NCBI GenBank assembly: GCA_022564935.1
Contig: JADFKM010000048.1
Span: 1 to 15,170 of the forward strand
Direction: 5' to 3'
Length of the DNA: 15,170 nt
Source of the DNA: Candidatus Dadabacteria bacterium
GTDB lineage: Bacteria > Desulfobacterota_D > UBA1144 > Nemesobacterales > JADFKM01
This document shows positions 1 through 12,239 of this stretch, one piece after another. Below the pieces are notes generated by a model. That model ran no database searches. It was not told where the DNA came from and worked only from the letters and a program-made list of their open reading frames with translations. Each line of letters begins with the position of its first letter. Positions within the stretch are counted from its first letter, which is position 1. The position numbers and the translations under genes are program-made.

Positions 1-556
1 TGGCGATAGGGGCATAAGGAGCATCGTTACGGCGGCGGCCAGTTGCGGCGTGCCCGTCTTCTGCCCGGCCATTGCAGACAGCCCCTACGGCGACGCGGCA
101 CTTATTGCGAAGGGCAAGGGCTTTTCCCTCACCATCGACGCCATGAAAGATTATGTTGAATTTATGTCCCTTGCGCAGAGGATGCAGGAAACCGCAGTGG
201 TTTATATAGGAGGGGGTGTGCCTAAGGATTTCATACAACTTTTTGCCGTAACGAGCGATTTAATGTATGAGGACAGGGTGGTGCCCAACAGAGCCCCCGG
301 CCTCAACAGGAAAGGCACCGGGAATCTGGAGACCTATTATCCGCATAAATATGCGATTCAAATCACTACCGATTCCCCGCAATGGGGCGGGCTTTCGGGA
401 TGAACGTTCGAAGAGGCCGTTTCCTGGGGCAAGGAGAAATCCAACGGCAACCTCGTTCAGTGCTACTGCGACGCCACCATTGCGCTTCCGATTGTGGCAC
501 ACGCTCTTGCCGAAAGAGTGGGGGAGAAGAGACAGGGCATCGATTTTAGCGAGTAG
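1..556 (+). pseudogene. Deoxyhypusine synthase-like protein, 3' part, interrupted by in-frame TGA
   Basis: The reading frame is open from the window edge (first full codon at base 2), so the gene starts outside. Its translation resembles the C-terminal half of the deoxyhypusine synthase / bacterial DHS-like family: a VPVFCPAIADS segment, then VVYIGGGVPKDF, then YAIQITTDSPQWGGLSG. The frame stops at TGA 401-403, then continues without any shift through TFEEAVSWGK and YCDATIALPIVAHALAE to TAG 554-556. EAVSWGK is the family motif holding the lysine that forms the enzyme-imine intermediate (codon 431-433), so a product ending at the TGA would lack the catalytic residue. Family members use spermidine and NAD to transfer an aminobutyl group; in bacteria, which lack eIF5A, a homospermidine-type or other polyamine role is more likely. 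The GTG at 50 is internal. Whether the TGA is a real mutation or a sequence error cannot be told from here. Confidence 0.8.
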
Positions 557-2721: not shown

Positions 2722-4222
2722 TTATTCGGGCTTTAGCAGTAACCCTTTGGGCAGCAGGGTGCGCTCAAATACCTCAAACAGACCCTGAACTGCGAGTGCA
2801 AGGAGGGCTGCCGGTACTGCACCTTCGAGGATCAACCCAGTGTTGTCCAGGCGGATCCCAGTGAGTATCGGCTGGCCGTAACCTCCGGCTCCGATCAGCG
2901 CGCCGAGGGTGGCCGTTCCCACGTTGATAACGGAAGATGTTTTAATCCCGGCCAGGATCGAGCGCGATGCAAGGGGCAGTTCTATGAGCCTCAGCCTTGC
3001 CCCTTCGGGCAGTCCCAGAGCCATCGAGGATTCGGTGATTTCGGGCGGAATATCGCTCAGGCCCGCGTATGTGTTCCTCACTATGGGGAGGAGGCTGTAG
3101 AGGAAGAGAGCGGCTATTGCGGGGGAAGTGCCGATGCCGAGCAAAGGAATCATAAACACCAGCAGGGCCAGCGAGGGGACTGTCTGTATTATTCCTACCG
3201 CTCCCAAGATTACCTGGCCGAAGGATTTGTGACGGCGGGAAAGGATTCCCAGGGGTATCGAAATAACAATGGCTGCGGAGAGGGAGATCGCTACGAGAAA
3301 CAGGTGCTCCATTGTGCGTCTCCAGAGTCGCGATAAGAAGGTGGCGGAGCTTACGGCAGGGGATAATGATAGATGCTCGCTCAGGAACCCCGCTGCAATA
3401 TTTTGCTCGGGAATGCGGTGGAGCTTTGCCTGCGCATTCAATCCGACCATCTTCGGCTCGTCTATCCTGCCTTCAAGCTCCAATATCTGCCCCAGTATCT
3501 CCGGGGCGCTCTTGAGCAGCTCTTTCCTGTATAGTATTACGGCATCGTAGCGCGGGAAGTAGTTCAGGTCGTCATGCAGCCTGCGGATGTTGTAGTAGCT
3601 TATTTCGGCGTCGGTGGAATAGAGGTCCATTGCGTCGATGGAGCCTGTTTGAAGCCCCCTGTAGGCAAGGTCGTGGTCTAGGCCCCTGACGTCTTTTTGC
3701 GGAAGGCCGTAGTGAGAGCGAAGGCCGGGCCAGCCGTCGCCCCTGTCCATGAACTCGTTGCTGAAGGCCAGTTTGAGGCCGGGGTGATTTTGCAAATCTG
3801 AGATTTTTTCAATCCCCAGGCTCACCGCCACGTCCTCTTTCATCCCTAAAACGTATGTGTTGTTGAATCCCAGAGGGCGGCTCATAAGGATGCCGTGCTC
3901 GGCAAGGGCTTCTCTTAACTGCCGCTCGTCCCTTTATGCTCCTTCCCGAAAAGATCTCTTTAGCGATTGTTCCTGTGTACTCAGGATAGATGTCTATTTC
4001 GCCTGAAATCAGAGAGCTCCAAAGGATTCTCGTGCCTCCGAGCTGACTCCTGTGTGTGGCGCGCGCTCCGCCGGTTCGTGCGATTTGGGTGATTATCTCC
4101 CCCAGTATTACGGATTCGGTGAATTTTTTCGATGCGGTTTTTATCTCGACCGGAGTTTTCTCAGCAGCCCCAAACACAGGCGGCGAATATATCAGGAGCA
4201 GCAAAGTCAGGAGCTTTATCAA
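2722..4222 (-). CDS. Fused substrate-binding/permease ABC transporter protein, OpuC/EgtU type, frameshifted
   Basis: Two overlapping frames (4222-3809 and 3885-2722) join into one protein of about 499 residues if one extra G in the GGG at 3930-3932 is ignored. The join reads GRSIK then DERQLREALAEHGILMSRPLG without loss. Residues 1-19 are a signal peptide. Residues about 21-285 are an OpuC/ProX-like binding domain (SKKFTESVILGEI, then EIDIYPEYTGT). Residues about 300-499 are a permease with several membrane segments and the ATPase-contacting EAA loop (ESSMALGLPEGARLRLIELP). Relatives import quaternary amines such as glycine betaine, choline or ergothioneine. The start is TTG at 4222, overlapping the ATPase stop as TTGA, with GGAGG 9 bases before it. 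The domain order is binding domain first, whereas described EgtU proteins have the permease first. Placement near egtBD suggests ergothioneine, but this is inference. The frameshift may be a sequencing error or a true lesion. Confidence 0.85.
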
Positions 4223-4971
4223 TCCTGGTCGCCTCCGATAACATCGAGAGGGTTTCGCTGTGCGTTAATGAACTCGGTGACGAAGGGCTCGGCGGGTGTG
4301 CGCGCAAGCTCGGTGAGCGTACCCTGCTGCACTATGGAACCGTCCTCCATCAACACCATGGTATCTCCGAGGAACCCGGCCTCTCCTAAATCGTGGGTTA
4401 CCATTACGACCGTCTTGTTCAGTGTACCGAACACGCTCTTGAGATCGACTTGAAGCTGGTATCTAATCAGCGGGTCGAGCGCTCCGAGCGGCTCGTCTAG
4501 GAGCAGTATGTCGGGCTCGAGCATCAGGGCGCGCATCAGGCTTACGCGCTGTCTCTGACCCCCGGAGAGCTGAATCGGGTAGCGCAGCAGGCCTTCGATG
4601 GGGAACTTCGTCAGCTCGCAAAGCTCAGCTATCCTCCTCTCTATCCAGCCGCTGTCCCTGCCCAGGTGTCTTGCCATGAGGGAGATGTTTCGCTCCGTCG
4701 TCAGGTGAGGGAAGAGCCCCCCTTCCTGAATCACATACCCCATACTCTGTCTGAGCCGGTAGACGTTCGACGGGTTCAAAATATGGCCGTCAATATACAC
4801 CGATCCGATGTCCGGCTCTATGAGACCGATAATCGTCCTGAGAATAGTGGATTTGCCGCATCCGCTCCGGCCGAGTATTACTGTGGTCATGCCCGGTGAT
4901 ATCCGTAGATCTATGGCGTCAAGCGCCGTATTATCGCCGTATGTCTTTGTGATATTTTCAAGGGTAATCAT
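4219..4971 (-). CDS. ABC transporter ATP-binding protein, OpuCA/EgtV type
   Basis: The 250-residue protein is a complete ABC ATPase. It has Walker A GRSGCGKS (34-41), a Q-loop at Gln82, the signature LSGGQ (135-139), Walker B ILLLDEP (155-161) and the switch His193 (VTHD). The best match by eye is the quaternary-amine uptake group (ProV/OpuCA/EgtV), but it ends soon after the nucleotide-binding domain and lacks the C-terminal CBS pair found in OpuCA and ProV. Its stop overlaps the TTG start of the downstream fused permease, implying translational coupling and one transporter complex. No strong ribosome site is seen before the ATG at 4971. The 300-base gap separating it from egtD means it may have its own promoter. 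Confidence 0.93.
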   Translation of the reverse strand: MITLENITKTYGDNTALDAIDLRISPGMTTVILGRSGCGKSTILRTIIGLIEPDIGSVYIDGHILNPSNVYRLRQSMGYVIQEGGLFPHLTTERNISLMARHLGRDSGWIERRIAELCELTKFPIEGLLRYPIQLSGGQRQRVSLMRALMLEPDILLLDEPLGALDPLIRYQLQVDLKSVFGTLNKTVVMVTHDLGEAGFLGDTMVLMEDGSIVQQGTLTELARTPAEPFVTEFINAQRNPLDVIGGDQD

Positions 4972-5271
4972 AGCTGTGTTTTAAGGGCTGGAGGTTACTG
5001 GATTTTGAGTGTCCTCTCTTGATAGAAGCAATTGCGGGGGAAGGAATCTGCTGGTTCAGGTCGATACGCGACCACCATTCTCCTCTGTCATATTAATTTA
5101 CTTTAGGAGTGAATATAAACTTTTTTGGGGCTATTTTCTATCGCATAGAAAAGGGTTGGATTTGATGATTGCAATGGGTGAGAGTTATAGAAAGAGCGTG
5201 TAGATCAGAATAAGTGCATATTTGAGGTACGGCAGTGAGTTTTAAATCAAGTTGGTAAATGATTGCGGCGG
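4972..5271. other. Non-coding spacer between egtD and the transporter genes
   Basis: No credible gene is seen in these 300 bases. A short perfect hairpin lies at 5134-5152 (TTTTCTAT, loop CGC, ATAGAAAA), but on the transcribed minus strand it is followed by TAGCCCC and an A-run rather than a T-run, so it is not a convincing intrinsic terminator. A five-base stem GGTCG/CGACC is present near 5058-5072. No good promoter consensus was found for the transporter operon on the minus strand. The spacer could hold a terminator for egtBD, a promoter or a regulatory leader. Confidence 0.4.
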
Positions 5272-6246
5272 TTATTTCACTGTGAGATACTGGACGCTGA
5301 ATTTTTTCTCTTTATCCGTCCATACGTGTTGGACGTCGAATATTGGGGAAACCATTTCTTCAAACTCCTCTATGCCGTATTTGTACGAGTATTCGGTCAG
5401 TATGTCCTCGTCAGTTTTGAAGAAAATTTTGTTGTTGTTCATCTTCACGCTCTGATCCTTCAAGCTCACAAGGTGCATTTCGACCCTTCCGTGTTCTTTA
5501 TTGTAGAATGCTTGATGTTTCCAGAGGCTTATTTGGAAGTTTGCGCCCAGCTCTCGGTTAAGCCTTCTTAAGATGTTTAAGTTGAACTCTGAGGTCAATC
5601 CATCTTTGTCGTTGTAAGCAGCTTCCAGGGTTTCGGTGTCCTTCTTTAAGTCGACGCCTATAAGCAGGCTGCCGTCCTTGCCGACGAGCCCGGCAATACG
5701 CCCGAGAAACTTAAGGGCCTGCTCGGGGGTGAAGTTGCCGATAGTCGAGCCGGGGTAAAACACGACTTTCTTTGACCACGTCACATCGAGCGGCGGCAGC
5801 TCGAACGGCTGAGAATAATCGGCGCAAACGGGACGTATCTTTAAGCTCTCATAGTCAATTGAAAGGGCTTCGGTTGATTTGATGAGATGGTTGAGAGAAA
5901 TGTCTATGGGGACGTAGGCCGAGATGTTCTTTAAGCGGTCAAGCAGCAAGCGTATCTTTAAGCTGCTCCCGCTCCCGAACTCGATTAACAGACAGTCCTG
6001 CCCTATCAGCGAAGATATTTCATCTAGGTTGTTTTCGATTATCCCTATCTCGGTTCTGGTTAGATAGTACTCTTCCAGGTCGCAAATTTGATCGAACAAC
6101 GCCGAGCCTTCCTCGTCGTAGAACAGCTTGCAGGGAAGTGTCTTCTGCGGCTTTTTTAGCCCGCTCAAGACCTCTCGCAGGTAGCTTTCCTGCTCAGGTG
6201 AATGCACGCTGCCCTCGGAGTTATGCTTTGGTCGTAGATTTGACAT
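5272..6246 (-). CDS. egtD: L-histidine N-alpha-methyltransferase EgtD
   Basis: EgtD uses three S-adenosylmethionine molecules to turn L-histidine into hercynine, the first step of ergothioneine synthesis, in the cytoplasm. The 324-residue length from the ATG at 6246 is normal for the family. Conserved blocks are LFYDEEGSALFDQI (41-54), EEYYLTRTE (58-66), the SAM site IEFGSGSSLK (88-97) with Asp114, YPGSTIGNF (164-172) containing the histidine-binding Asn171, Tyr211, and TEYSYKY (284-290), whose Glu285 and Ser287 correspond to the residues that hold the imidazole ring. The frame is open to a GTG at 6282 inside egtB, but the ATG two bases after the egtB stop gives the usual N-terminus. With this spacing egtB and egtD form one operon, egtB first. 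No accessory egt genes follow directly. Confidence 0.96.
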   Translation of the reverse strand: MSNLRPKHNSEGSVHSPEQESYLREVLSGLKKPQKTLPCKLFYDEEGSALFDQICDLEEYYLTRTEIGIIENNLDEISSLIGQDCLLIEFGSGSSLKIRLLLDRLKNISAYVPIDISLNHLIKSTEALSIDYESLKIRPVCADYSQPFELPPLDVTWSKKVVFYPGSTIGNFTPEQALKFLGRIAGLVGKDGSLLIGVDLKKDTETLEAAYNDKDGLTSEFNLNILRRLNRELGANFQISLWKHQAFYNKEHGRVEMHLVSLKDQSVKMNNNKIFFKTDEDILTEYSYKYGIEEFEEMVSPIFDVQHVWTDKEKKFSVQYLTVK

Positions 6247-6248
6247 GC

Positions 6249-7550
6249 TTATTTTGCGAGCCTCAATCCCTTGAACTGCCACCTGGCCTCAGGGGGGAAG
6301 AAGTTCCTGTATGTGGGTCGTATATGCGATTTAGGCGTAGCGCAGGAGCCGCCTCTTAAGACCATCTGATTCGACATGAACTTGCCGTTGTACTCACCGA
6401 GTGCGCTGGAAGGGGCGCTATAACCGGGGTATGGGGAATATGAGCTTCGAGTCCATTCCCAAAGGTCGCCGAACATCTGTTGGATTGAGCCGGATGCACG
6501 GCCGTTCTGAGTGGGTATGGGATGGTAGTATCCGTCATCAGCGAAATTGCCTGAAATCTCTACCGAAGAGGATGCGGTTTCCCATTCGGCCTCTGTTGGC
6601 AGTCTCGCACCCGCCCAGCCTGCGTATGCCTCTGCCTCATAAAAGCTCAGGTGGCTCACGGGCTCCTCAGGGTTTACCCCCCTCATGCCCGCAAGTGTGT
6701 AGTGCCGCCATTTGCCCTCGAGCTTCTCCCAGTATAACGGGGCCTTCCAGTCGTTGAGCTCGATCGTAGCCCATCCGTCCGAGAGCCACAGCTCCGGTCT
6801 TTCATAGGCGCCGTCTTCGATGAACTCTACGTACTCTCCGTTTGTGACCAGGCGTGTTGCTATGGAAAATTCGCCTACGAACTGTCGGTGGAGTGGAAGC
6901 TCGTTGTCGTAGGCGAATGACTCGCCGTCGCTTCCGATCCACCGCTGTCCCTCGGGGAACTCGACCCAGCCCATTTTTTCTACGCTCTTAGTTCTAGGGG
7001 GGGTCGGTAAATCTTTACGGTAAGCGGGCTTCATGGGGTTTATGGAAAATACGTGTTTGATGTCTGTTAGCATAAGCTCCTGGTGCTGCTGCTCGTGATG
7101 CAAGCCGATCTCGATTATTGGGGCGAGCTCTTCAAATATAACTTCTCCAGAGTTTTCTAAAAATTCCAACATGTGGTTGTCGACGTGCTTGCGGTATTTG
7201 AAGGTGTCTTCAACCCCCGGTCTTGAGATAAGCCCCCGGTTAGGACGGTACCATCTCTCACCGGCCAGTACGTAGTAGGAATTGAAGAGATATGCGTATT
7301 GGGGGTTGGGAGATTTGTATTTTGGGTCTGCCTTCGGGAGTACAAATGTTTCAAAGAACCAGCTTGTGTGAGCCAGGTGCCATTTAGTGGGGCTTACATC
7401 GGGCATCGATTGGATTACATAGTCTTCAATATTGAGGGGTTGGCAAAGGGTCTCGGAGAACTTGCGCACTTCCCGGTATTTAGAGGCTAAAGAGTCCCTT
7501 CCAAGGTTTGAGGTGGGAAGAAAGTCTTTTTGCGGAGCGCCTTCGTTCAT
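6249..7550 (-). CDS. egtB: Ergothioneine biosynthesis sulfoxide synthase EgtB
   Basis: EgtB is a mononuclear non-haem iron enzyme that joins hercynine and a thiol donor (gamma-glutamylcysteine or cysteine) with O2 to form a sulfoxide. The 433 residues show the two expected parts: an N-terminal DinB-like domain (about 20-165) and a C-terminal formylglycine-generating-enzyme-like domain (about 195-433, with GDLWEWTRSSYSPYPGY and LRGGSCATPKSHIRPTYRNF). Likely iron ligands are His61 (HLAHTSWFFE), His152 and His156 (HHEQQHQE). The segment LFNSYYVLAGERW has adjacent Tyr92-Tyr93, which recalls the tyrosine pair described for the cysteine-using EgtB of Chloracidobacterium, so direct use of cysteine is possible. 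An AAGGAGG site lies 14 bases upstream of the ATG at 7550, slightly far but usable. egtD follows after 2 bases. Confidence 0.96.
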   Translation of the reverse strand: MNEGAPQKDFLPTSNLGRDSLASKYREVRKFSETLCQPLNIEDYVIQSMPDVSPTKWHLAHTSWFFETFVLPKADPKYKSPNPQYAYLFNSYYVLAGERWYRPNRGLISRPGVEDTFKYRKHVDNHMLEFLENSGEVIFEELAPIIEIGLHHEQQHQELMLTDIKHVFSINPMKPAYRKDLPTPPRTKSVEKMGWVEFPEGQRWIGSDGESFAYDNELPLHRQFVGEFSIATRLVTNGEYVEFIEDGAYERPELWLSDGWATIELNDWKAPLYWEKLEGKWRHYTLAGMRGVNPEEPVSHLSFYEAEAYAGWAGARLPTEAEWETASSSVEISGNFADDGYYHPIPTQNGRASGSIQQMFGDLWEWTRSSYSPYPGYSAPSSALGEYNGKFMSNQMVLRGGSCATPKSHIRPTYRNFFPPEARWQFKGLRLAK

Positions 7551-8452: not shown

Positions 8453-10105
8453 ATGGCTGCTAAACAAATTGCATTTGGTTCTGAGGCGAGAGATTCAATT
8501 TTAAAAGGCATTGAGCAGTTATCAAACGCCGTTAAGGCAACGTTGGGTCCAAGGGGAAGGAACGTATTGATCGAGAAGAGCTTCGGCGCCCCGGTTGTGA
8601 CCAAGGACGGAGTAACGGTGGCTAAAGAGATAGAGCTCGAAGATAGATACGAGAATATGGGCGCTCAGATGGTAAAAGAGGTAGCTTCGAAGACAAGCGA
8701 CGTGGCTGGGGACGGCACTACGACTGCGACCCTTCTTGCACAGGGAATTTTTAAAGAGGGCATAAAGCTCGTGGCAGCCGGTCATGACCCCATGAAGCTG
8801 AAAAGGGGTATCGACAAATCTGTTGTAGTCGTGGTCGACACTATCAGAAAACTCAGCAAGCAGGTCAAGGGGAGAACAGAGATTGCTCAGGTGGCCACAA
8901 TATCGGCAAACGGTGATGAAGACATTGGAAACATCATTGCGGATGCAATGGAGAAGGTCGGTAAGGACGGCGTTATTACCGTCGAGGAAGGCAAGATCCT
9001 TGAAACTACGATGGAAGTGGTTGAGGGTATGCAGTTCGACAGGGGCTATCTTTCCCCATATTTCGTTACCGAGACCGAAAAGATGATTGTAGAGATGGAA
9101 GATCCCCTCGTGCTTCTCTATGATAAAAAGATCGCCAACATGAAAGACCTCGTTCCACTGCTCGAAGAGGTAGCAAGGAGCCAGAAGCCTATTCTGATAG
9201 TTTCAGAGGACGTTGAGGGGGAAGCCCTTGCCACACTGGTCGTCAATAGAATCAGGGGAACCCTGAAGTGCGCCGCGGTTAAGGCCCCGGGGTTTGGAGA
9301 CAGGCGTAAGGCGATGATTGAGGACTTAGCGGTACTCACAGGCGGCACCGTCATATCGGAAGAGGCGGGAATGAAGCTTGAAGATGCCAACCTTAAATCA
9401 ATGGGTACAGCGAAAAAAGTGGTAATAGACAAGGAAAATACCACAATTATCGGGGGGGGCGGCAAAAAAGCCGACATCGAAGCGAGAATCAGGCAGTTAA
9501 AGTCCCAGATCGATGAGGCTACCGGTGAGTACGACAGGGAGAAGCTCCAGGAGAGACTCGCCAAGCTTGCCGGCGGCGTTTCGGTGGTCAAAGTGGGCGC
9601 CGCTACTGAAACTGAGATGAAGGAGAAGAAAGCCAGGGTTGAGGATGCCTTGAACGCGACAAGAGCGGCGGTGGAAGAGGGCATAGTGCCCGGAGGCGGG
9701 GTTGCTCTGATAAGAGCCATTACTCCGCTTTTGGAATTTGATACGGGCGATGATGAGGAGAAGGCCGGTGTCAACATAGTACGGCGTGTGCTCGAAGATC
9801 CCTTAAGGGGCATTGCTTCAAATGCCGGATGGGACGGTTCGATCGTTGTAGAGAAGGTAAAAGAGAGCAAAGGCTCAATCGGTTTTGACGCAGCCGCACT
9901 GAAGTACTGCGACCTTGTGGAGGCCGGGATCGTCGACCCGACAAAGGTATGCCGCTCGGCGCTTCAAAATGCAGCCAGCGTCGCCGGACTCCTGTTGACT
10001 ACAGAAGCCCTTGTAGCTGAAAAGCCCTCCGAAGAGGGCGCCGGTATGCCCGGTGGAATGCCCGGCGGTGGTGGAGGTATGCCGGGCGGAATGGGCGGAT
10101 TTTAA
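8453..10105 (+). CDS. groEL: Chaperonin GroEL
   Basis: GroEL forms the double-ring, 14-subunit folding chamber in the cytoplasm and hydrolyses ATP to drive folding of client proteins. At 550 residues it is full length. Signatures include the N-terminal [18 protein letters not shown], the ATP-site loop [15 protein letters not shown], the apical region ending in [13 protein letters not shown], the family motif [18 protein letters not shown], and a C-terminal Gly-Gly-Met-rich tail ([20 protein letters not shown] then Phe) typical of class I chaperonins. AAGGAGGT (8437-8444) lies 8 bases before the ATG, and 19 bases separate it from groES. A strong terminator follows 20 bases after the stop. The sequence shows no lesion or unusual insert. 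Confidence 0.99.
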
Positions 10106-10124
10106 ATTAAACACGAACCGAGAG

Positions 10125-10152
10125 GGGAGGGTGGTAAATACACCACCCTCCC
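10125..10152 (+). terminator. Intrinsic terminator after groEL
   Basis: An 11-base perfect stem, GGGAGGGTGGT (10125-10135) with ACCACCCTCCC (10142-10152), closes a six-base loop. A moderately T-rich tail (AGTCTTACTTTTG) follows. Position and strength suit the end of the groESL transcript. Confidence 0.85.
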
Positions 10153-10293
10153 AGTCTTACTTTTGACGCACTTCCCTTTTTTTAGTTACCATTTAATTTA
10201 TTTTCGTTTATCAGGGTACATGCGCTGATTCATGTTCAGCAGCATTGTATGAGCGGGGGAATGTGCTTGAGCTTTTTAATATAAAGAGTGGTG

Positions 10294-10313
10294 AAAAACC
10301 GGGTCTTAACCCG
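10294..10313 (-). terminator. Intrinsic terminator overlapping the cofC stop codon
   Basis: Read on the minus strand, CGGGT, loop TAAG, ACCCG (10313-10300) is followed by GTTTTTC. The loop contains the cofC TAA stop codon. The stem is only five pairs but GC-rich and is followed by a proper T-run, so it probably ends the cofC transcript before it meets groESL. Confidence 0.6.
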
Positions 10314-10989
10314 TGAGCTTCAATTTCTCTACCCTGTCTGCGATGCCGAGCTTGCGAAGGGCAACGAGCGTGTTGGAGCTCCGAGCATCGTTCATATTGT
10401 AATATGTAACCAGGGCTCTCAAATCTTCAGGCTCGTCTACGTCGAGTCCGATTCGGGGGTTTTCTATTACGCTGTAGGGAATTTCAAACCTTTTTGCGTC
10501 TTCGATGTGCTTTCTCAGGCTGTCGCGGCCGAACTGGGAGCGGATTACGTTTGGAGGAGTTTGCAGGATTGCGTTCGTGCCGAATCTGTCCCTTGAAGGG
10601 ACGATGATAACTGAGGGTTGTGGGAGCGGTCTATCCAAAATGAAGTCAATATCCAGTGGTGTGATTAATGGAATATCGCCCGGGATCCTGAGTACTGAAG
10701 TTGCTCCCATTTCAGCGCAGATAAGCGATGCTTCATCTACGGAGGCGCTTTCTCCCCTCTGGTCTTTTTCGATTATAAGGTCGAATCCGAGCTCTTTTGA
10801 GAGCTCGCAGACCCTTTCGTCTATAGTTACTACAAGGCAGCGTTCGGGAAGCTCCGAGCGTTTTAAGGCGCCGAGCATATCTCTCAGCATGGCCAGGACG
10901 AGCTCCTTCCTCTCAGCCCCGGTAAGGAAGCCCGACATCCTATCCTTCGCCTTGGTTAAGTCTTTTACGGGAACAATAACGAATTTCAT
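10306..10989 (-). CDS. cofC: Phospholactate/phosphoenolpyruvate guanylyltransferase (CofC/FbiD), F420 pathway
   Basis: CofC (FbiD in actinobacteria) transfers GMP from GTP to 2-phospholactate or phosphoenolpyruvate, making the activated side-chain precursor of coenzyme F420. The 227-residue protein has the MobA-like nucleotidyltransferase pattern: N-terminal FVIVPVKDLTKAKDRMSGFL, RIPGDIPLIT (101-110) with its metal-binding Asp105, PSRDRFGTNAIL (131-142), FGRDSLRKHI (153-162) and LDVDEPEDL (182-190). No clear Shine-Dalgarno precedes the ATG at 10989. It stands alone: no cofD/fbiA, cofE/fbiB or cofGH/fbiC is next to it, so F420 synthesis would need unlinked genes. Its terminator overlaps the stop, converging on groESL. 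Which phosphoacid is used cannot be deduced here. Confidence 0.9.
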   Translation of the reverse strand: MKFVIVPVKDLTKAKDRMSGFLTGAERKELVLAMLRDMLGALKRSELPERCLVVTIDERVCELSKELGFDLIIEKDQRGESASVDEASLICAEMGATSVLRIPGDIPLITPLDIDFILDRPLPQPSVIIVPSRDRFGTNAILQTPPNVIRSQFGRDSLRKHIEDAKRFEIPYSVIENPRIGLDVDEPEDLRALVTYYNMNDARSSNTLVALRKLGIADRVEKLKLTG

Positions 10990-11447: not shown

Positions 11448-12239
11448 TCAGCAGCCGCATTCAATGTCGCTTGTATCTTCTTTTAGGTTTTGCTGAACGG
11501 CATCTTCCATTTTATCGGAGCTGTCTGATGAAGCGGAGCCGGCGGATTTGGCCCCTCCTGAGTTCACATCCTTGAGGGTTTCCATCGATATTCCCGTATG
11601 GGCGTAGCAGGCGCCTGCCGCCATGACCATGGCCACGTTGATGGCCTCAGCGACCTGCTCGCGGCTGACTCCGAAATCCACTGCGTCCTTCGCGCAACCC
11701 CTGATGCACCACGGACACCGGGTCATATGCGCGCAGGCAAGTCCGATGATCGCCCTCTTCATTGTTTTACTCAGGGCTCCGTCCTGAAACACTTTGCTGT
11801 GGAAATCCATGAACGGCTTCGAAATAGGTCCGCTTGCCTCCCTGAACTCCCCAATCTCCTTGGTGATGTTCTTCTTGAAGAAATGGCCTTCGGTTATAGG
11901 CTCGTCATTTTTCAGGGCGTCGTATGTTTCGAAAGCAATGTTGGAGTATGCGAAAGGCGCGCCCATGGCAAACCTCATACCCACGTAGATTGCCTCCACT
12001 ATCTCCTCGTCCGAGGCTCCTGCGTGCTTTGAAGTCTTTACTCGCCCCCTTATACAGTAAGGACATCTCGTTATGTGAGAGCCGGCCACTGCGATCAGCT
12101 CTTTTTCCTTTTTACTCAAAGCCCCGTCAGCGAAGACAGCGTCGTGGAACGTCTGCCACCCCTCGTGAAGCTCCGGCTTGATCTTTTTGAGCAAGCCGAT
12201 TTCATCCCTTATGTTGCTTTTAAACATATACTCTGACAT
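11448..12239 (-). CDS. Tandem carboxymuconolactone decarboxylase / AhpD-like protein
   Basis: The 263 residues hold two carboxymuconolactone decarboxylase (CMD) domains, about 20-110 and 135-225, each with a CxxC pair: HITRCPYCIRG (Cys59, Cys62) and HMTRCPWCIRG (Cys175, Cys178). In AhpD-type proteins the CxxC works as a thiol redox centre. The His normally four residues after the second Cys is replaced here by Arg66 in the first domain and Cys182 in the second. A Ser/Asp/Glu-rich tail follows domain two and ends in ECGC, adding two more cysteines. The ATG at 12239 is preceded by AAGGAGGT at 9 bases. It lies 72 bases downstream of a tetR gene on the same strand and is probably cotranscribed with it. 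A thiol-redox or hydroperoxide-related role is likely; the exact reaction is unknown. Confidence 0.9.
   Translation of the reverse strand: MSEYMFKSNIRDEIGLLKKIKPELHEGWQTFHDAVFADGALSKKEKELIAVAGSHITRCPYCIRGRVKTSKHAGASDEEIVEAIYVGMRFAMGAPFAYSNIAFETYDALKNDEPITEGHFFKKNITKEIGEFREASGPISKPFMDFHSKVFQDGALSKTMKRAIIGLACAHMTRCPWCIRGCAKDAVDFGVSREQVAEAINVAMVMAAGACYAHTGISMETLKDVNSGGAKSAGSASSDSSDKMEDAVQQNLKEDTSDIECGC

Follow-up and report, generated by a model that had tools for sequence, protein, structure and literature searches.

A substrate-binding domain-permease fusion transporter encoded beside EgtD pathways in about ten phyla, a probable importer of ergothioneine, selenoneine or hercynine

Uptake of ergothioneine by bacteria is known from organisms that are mostly unable to make the compound, and type I ABC systems that rely on a binding domain are importers. 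The closest described systems are those of the EgtU type (EgtU/EgtUV; S. pneumoniae spd_1642-1643, Listeria BilE and H. pylori EgtU); EgtU is reported almost only from Firmicutes (PMC9732360). Gly 244, Phe 293 and Tyr 337 are the published determinants of ergothioneine specificity in SpEgtU, and EgtU-related proteins without these determinants, the H. pylori work included, aid ergothioneine uptake at lower affinity (PMC9732360). Here we describe a 15,170-nucleotide contig from a draft metagenome-assembled genome (MAG) of a Candidatus Dadabacteria bacterium (JADFKM010000048.1; the window), in which egtB and egtD lie upstream of the genes for an ATPase and for a fusion of an OpuAC substrate-binding domain (SBD) with a BPD_transp_1 permease (transmembrane domain, TMD). 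The ATPase and the fusion belong to a widespread and so far uncharacterised transporter family whose adjacency to EgtD is far above chance and which, judging from sequence, probably imports ergothioneine, selenoneine and/or the precursor hercynine (trimethyl-histidine betaine). What the analysis shows directly is how the domains are arranged, that linkage to EgtD pathways is conserved and which residues line the binding pocket; the direction of transport (from the importing role of such systems), the substrate and the purpose are inferred.

All four genes are on the minus strand. The sulfoxide synthase of ergothioneine biosynthesis is encoded by egtB (6249–7550, 433 aa); its product matches TIGR03440 (6e-172) with 572 bits against a curated NCBIfam cut-off of 360, and carries the iron-ligand motif HX3HXE as HEQQHQE at residue 152. 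The L-histidine N-alpha-methyltransferase gene egtD (5272–6282, 336 aa as listed) probably starts at the ATG that immediately follows the stop codon of egtB, and its product matches TIGR03438 (1e-115; 386 bits, cut-off 290.9) and PF10017 (1.6e-106). A non-coding gap of 300 bp (4972–5271, minus strand) separates it from the gene for an OpuC/ProV-type quaternary-amine importer ATPase (4219–4971, 250 aa; TIGR01186, 2.3e-63), which is 59–68% identical to the ATPases adjoining the fusion in other genomes of the same order (order-mates). The fusion gene (4222–2722), in which the OpuAC domain precedes the permease, overlaps the ATPase gene by 4 nt (fusion start and ATPase stop). A separate proV-like ATPase thus adjoins a PF04069 plus PF00528 fusion, as required of an EgtU-type importer. 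The original prediction of egtB-egtD and a quaternary-amine-type ABC system in tandem on one strand was borne out for all four elements and for the strand; the fusion, however, is not one open reading frame, with a frame switch at about 3,930. A sigma-70-like match in the gap (5140–5112) is weak and was not taken as evidence of a promoter. No match above cut-off to the dedicated partners EgtE and EgtC was found in the host genome.

The proposed survey for conserved adjacency gave a clear result within the order. Of 15 further order-mates with the transporter, 13 have it on the strand of egtBD and no more than about 6 kb away, the order being egtB-egtD-(DUF427)-(DUF6596 protein)-ATPase-fusion or part of this series. 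In one of the remaining two (G040) a contig end interrupts the locus and leaves the ATPase and egtD together, and in the other (G013) the transporter and egtBD are unlinked. All 16 carriers in the order, counting the window, have EgtD; of the 27 genomes without the transporter, 11 do (p = 5.6e-5, Fisher). DUF427 and DUF6596 genes fill the egtD-ATPase gap in most order-mates (L032 8420–8968, L092 8402–9163, L026 13054–14361 and equivalents), and neither is in the window. The DUF427 protein has about 164–183 aa; the DUF6596 protein is a complete ECF-sigma-like protein in L026 and L029 and elsewhere is without the sigma part. In several order-mates hisG (ATP phosphoribosyltransferase) is found just upstream of egtB (L025 5553–6185 and equivalents), which places histidine supply next to hercynine synthesis.

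The same adjacency extends well beyond the order. Scanning 84,980 species genomes yielded 539 relatives, and in the best 80 of these, 27 loci have EgtD no more than 10 kb away from the fusion, against about 0.4 expected were a single EgtD randomly positioned in a genome of 4 Mb; the 80 loci include several near-identical pairs. The linked loci span about ten phyla, where the phylum labels of MAGs were taken from record titles and are in part doubtful, and have differing gene orders, with EgtD and the fusion often separated by 0–335 bp on the same strand and intergenic distances that often stay below 350 bp. No neighbours other than EgtD-pathway genes recur across phyla. In a tree built from 85 fusions the linked and unlinked rows are scattered and require at least 19 changes, so the association arose or was kept many times.

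Three alternative and chemically distinct routes of chalcogen insertion are encoded beside the transporter, namely EgtB, SenA/SenB (selenoneine) and a fusion of a molybdopterin oxidoreductase to a NifS-type cysteine desulfurase. EgtB-linked loci occur in Dadabacteria, MAGs labelled Gemmatimonadota or Latescibacterota, Bacteroidota, Neomarinimicrobiota and Phycisphaerae, and loci linked to both SenA and SenB in Nitrospinota, Acidobacteriota and Marinimicrobia. In one locus (L157) SenA (482.8 bits, cut-off 420) and SenB (374.8 bits, cut-off 300) both exceed their cut-offs, and the EgtD part scores 363 bits. SenB (selenosugar synthase) and EgtD form there a single fusion of 649 aa (8649–10595) that directly follows SenA and the transporter. 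SenA-like proteins in L095, L102, L106, L111 and L115 are 51–56% identical. The molybdopterin oxidoreductase-cysteine desulfurase fusion stands next to EgtD in five loci (L096, L097, L098, L112 and L159), and occurs beside the transporter in Scalindua, in Syntrophobacteraceae and in L112. This is the architecture of the metallopterin-dependent ergothioneine synthase, MES (PMC9516567), and the fusion is called MES-like below.

Carriers without a nearby EgtD mostly encode it at a distance, 38 of 49 having EgtD above cut-off elsewhere in the genome. Among 184 gammaproteobacterial genomes EgtD is found in 9 of 11 carriers versus 61 of 173 non-carriers (p = 0.003, or p = 0.011 without four carriers already found by homology). 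In one lineage (L099 3–803, L101, L105 8224–9186) the gene for a protein with a 2-thiouracil-desulfurase domain (PF04463 plus DUF1722) ends 15 bp before the ATPase gene. The genomes of this lineage are without EgtD, and a thione-desulfurising enzyme in this position could hint at breakdown of ergothioneine after uptake.

In order to compare the binding pocket with that of EgtU, residues of 85 fusion family sequences were mapped onto SpEgtUC numbering (PMC9732360). Lys 242, Thr 275, Thr 296, Tyr 341, Glu 375, Arg 379, Asp 381, Tyr 419 and Tyr 443 are kept in the family. The cage and the carboxylate and imidazole contacts among them (Tyr 341, Tyr 419, Tyr 443, Lys 242, Thr 296, Glu 375 and Arg 379), which are invariant or nearly so in the 85 sequences, are common to other quaternary-amine binders and do not discriminate. 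Trp 383 and His 401 are invariant, the latter within an Asp-His-Asp motif at 400–402, and linked and unlinked members do not differ in pocket residues. The family profile scores SpEgtUC at 214–218 bits, Listeria BilEB at 204, H. pylori EgtU and AfProX both at 197 and OpuCC/OpuBC at 148–158. The predicted structure of an order-mate fusion (L092; pLDDT 83) has the SBD followed by the TMD, and the modelled SBD is closest to the solved H. pylori EgtU with bound ergothioneine (Z 34.5, 1.6 Å). ProX and OpuBC are nearly tied with it in Z, and therefore the fold comparison, tried as an arbiter, does not decide between EgtU and ProX.

What the linked routes have in common is limited to EgtD and the scaffold of trimethyl-histidine betaines, and ergothioneine/selenoneine or hercynine is therefore the parsimonious substrate. 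Attached to the N-terminal end of the permease, the SBD would capture the betaine outside the inner membrane through the usual aromatic cage (Tyr 293, Tyr 341, Tyr 419 and Tyr 443 in SpEgtU numbering) and carboxylate contacts (Lys 242, Thr 296 and Arg 379), and ATP hydrolysis by the neighbouring ATPase would drive uptake. Producers such as the window's host may thereby recapture leaked product or supplement synthesis, and carriers without EgtD may scavenge from the environment. Uptake of the product is tentatively favoured over uptake of the precursor, since no neighbour is as constant as EgtD and some carriers lack it. The family may, in a tentative reading that we hold to be almost as probable as not, represent a second and independently arranged importer lineage for 2-thio- and 2-seleno-histidine betaines, with the SBD ahead of the permease and a pocket unlike that of EgtU (Phe 244, Trp 383, Asp-His-Asp 400–402). 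Such a lineage would serve producers of both compounds in about ten mostly Gram-negative phyla and across aerobic, anaerobic and selenium routes.

Several observations weigh against an importer of this kind. At the three positions that determine specificity in SpEgtU the family has Phe 244 (82 of 85 sequences), Tyr 293 (85 of 85) and Phe 337 (85 of 85), which is the combination of the glycine-betaine-binding AfProX; the proposed comparison of pocket residues thus came out on the side of a betaine binder and not of EgtU, and the label "EgtU-like" fails both on this signature and on the SBD-TMD domain order. Linkage is absent from 52 of the 85 tree rows, some of which have short flanks. About ten carrier genomes, including the complete chromosome of L108, are without a full EgtD, as would fit scavenging. 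No carrier in the gammaproteobacterial sample has the transporter and EgtD close together, and the window's own fusion copy is frameshifted. Because of the pocket residues, the main alternative is a general importer of osmolytes of the glycine-betaine/choline type, with adjacency to egtD reflecting shared stress regulation or methyl supply (betaine to methionine to S-adenosylmethionine, SAM). The AfProX combination at the discriminating positions and the generic Tyr cage suit such an importer, as do the near-equal distance of the modelled SBD from ProX, OpuBC and EgtU and the many carriers unlinked to EgtD. A need for osmolytes nevertheless gives a poor account of why the transporter is linked to EgtB, SenA/B and MES-like routes, no osmoadaptation gene was seen recurring beside unlinked copies, and the family profile prefers EgtU over OpuC/ProX; a neighbour resembling betaine-homocysteine methyltransferase was not noticed either, in a survey that included no specific search for one. 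We consider an osmolyte importer unlikely. The absent signature lowers the probability that the protein is an EgtU more than the probability that it carries ergothioneine, because relatives lacking the determinants contribute to uptake. Import of hercynine (histidine betaine) as precursor for EgtB, SenA or the MES-like enzyme, saving three SAM per molecule, is a narrower form of our proposal, so that the likelihoods given to the two overlap. Hercynine, which EgtD produces, serves all three linked chalcogen-insertion enzymes as substrate, and the small-ligand-type pocket with its Phe 244 may be suited to a ligand that has no thione. When given hercynine, E. coli with MES also makes more ergothioneine than by intracellular synthesis (PMC9516567). 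Hercynine import would, however, make EgtD redundant although it is the most constant neighbour; carriers without EgtD exist, L108 again among them, and SpEgtU binds hercynine weakly (PMC9732360). We consider restriction to hercynine less likely than not. The idea of a dedicated carrier of ergothioneine or hercynine in an organism that also makes it is strongly supported by linkage in about ten phyla and to three routes including that of selenoneine, and stands without the EgtU pocket signature, which is absent.

A further alternative concerns this genome's copy only, namely that the transporter is a pseudogene and its adjacency a relic, ergothioneine being made and not imported. The N-terminal part of the fusion, with the signal sequence and the first part of the OpuAC domain (3809–4222, minus strand; PF04069 positions 2–65), is in frame through an EIFSGRSIK stretch to about 3,930. 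The blastx frames switch at 3925–3940 (minus strand), as after a single-base frameshift, and a stop in the downstream frame lies shortly before the switch point. The remainder (2722–3885, minus strand) encodes the C-terminal OpuAC part (PF04069 positions 81–256) followed by the BPD_transp_1 permease (PF00528). Twelve order-mate copies are uninterrupted single open reading frames of 497–521 aa, and a programmed frameshift was therefore rejected. The lesion within the SBD and the failure to find a second copy in the host genome (G000, 88.6% complete) speak for a pseudogene, and egtD occurs without the transporter in 11 order-mates. In one order-mate (G031) the fusion is reduced to its final 31 codons, flanked by the same neighbours, so that loss of the transporter does occur; this remnant (L083 4032–4124), with the DUF6596 gene on one side and the next conserved gene on the other, marks a deleted transporter. 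Against this, the remaining frame is otherwise open and 63–70% identical to intact order-mate fusions, and a second conserved gene on the contig has a stop that 29 relatives lack, which makes error at least as likely as decay. The window's fusion is thus either an otherwise intact gene with a sequence error or a recently inactivated one. Two conserved genes broken on one 15-kb draft-MAG contig suggest sequence errors; genuine decay is possible, and we rate a pseudogene as a real possibility at somewhat below even weight.

The second broken gene is the end of a deoxyhypusine-synthase-like gene (window 2–553) with an in-frame TGA at 401–403. This codon belongs to the stretch GGLSG-x-TFEEAVSWGK, and 29 order-mates encode Cys (TGC/TGT) at its position. 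Selenocysteine here was considered and is unlikely, as no SelB above cut-off was found in the genome and its best match to tRNA-Sec is a tRNA-Ser; RNA downstream of the TGA folds no better than shuffled sequences. The TGA is probably a nonsense mutation or a sequence error. Elsewhere in the window, cofC (2-phospho-L-lactate guanylyltransferase, 10306–10989; TIGR03552 above cut-off) suggests F420 synthesis in the host organism, and a double CMD/AhpD-domain protein (11448–12239) is above the cut-off for TIGR04169 (arsenosugar-biosynthesis-associated peroxidase-like).

If import of ergothioneine or selenoneine is correct, producers of these compounds also import or recycle them, with one transporter family coupled to three unrelated synthesis routes. 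The family would then include the first candidate carrier of selenoneine, for which no bacterial importer was found in the literature searched. It would also provide a ready panel of proteins for how a betaine pocket tells a thione, a selenone and a plain imidazole apart, and carriers of this kind would be missed by EgtU pocket signatures alone.

Compared with known systems, the family is nearest to EgtU, with which it has in common one ATPase and a permease fused to an OpuAC-type binding domain, the Tyr cage and Lys 242, Thr 296, Glu 375 and Arg 379; by profile score EgtU proteins are the closest solved relatives of the SBD. The domain order differs, being permease then binding domain in EgtU (EgtUBC), whereas in the members examined here the SBD precedes the TMD and a signal sequence or a lipobox is present. 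EgtU has Gly 244, Phe 293 and Tyr 337 where this family has Phe, Tyr and Phe, and is without its invariant Trp 383 and Asp-His-Asp 400–402. Unlike EgtU, the family is found for the most part in Gram-negative phyla that are themselves producers of the compound. AfProX, OpuBC and OpuCC have the Cluster F-III fold and an aromatic cage in common with it, and AfProX the same residues at 244, 293 and 337; they differ in that here the SBD is fused to the permease and linked to EgtD pathways, and OpuC and OpuB score lower against the family profile. No report of a transporter linked to ergothioneine, selenoneine or MES clusters was found in the open full-text literature, which does not cover subscription papers. 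The clusters themselves correspond to described egtBD, senAB and MES systems, with EgtB, EgtD, SenA and SenB confirmed by curated models above cut-off.

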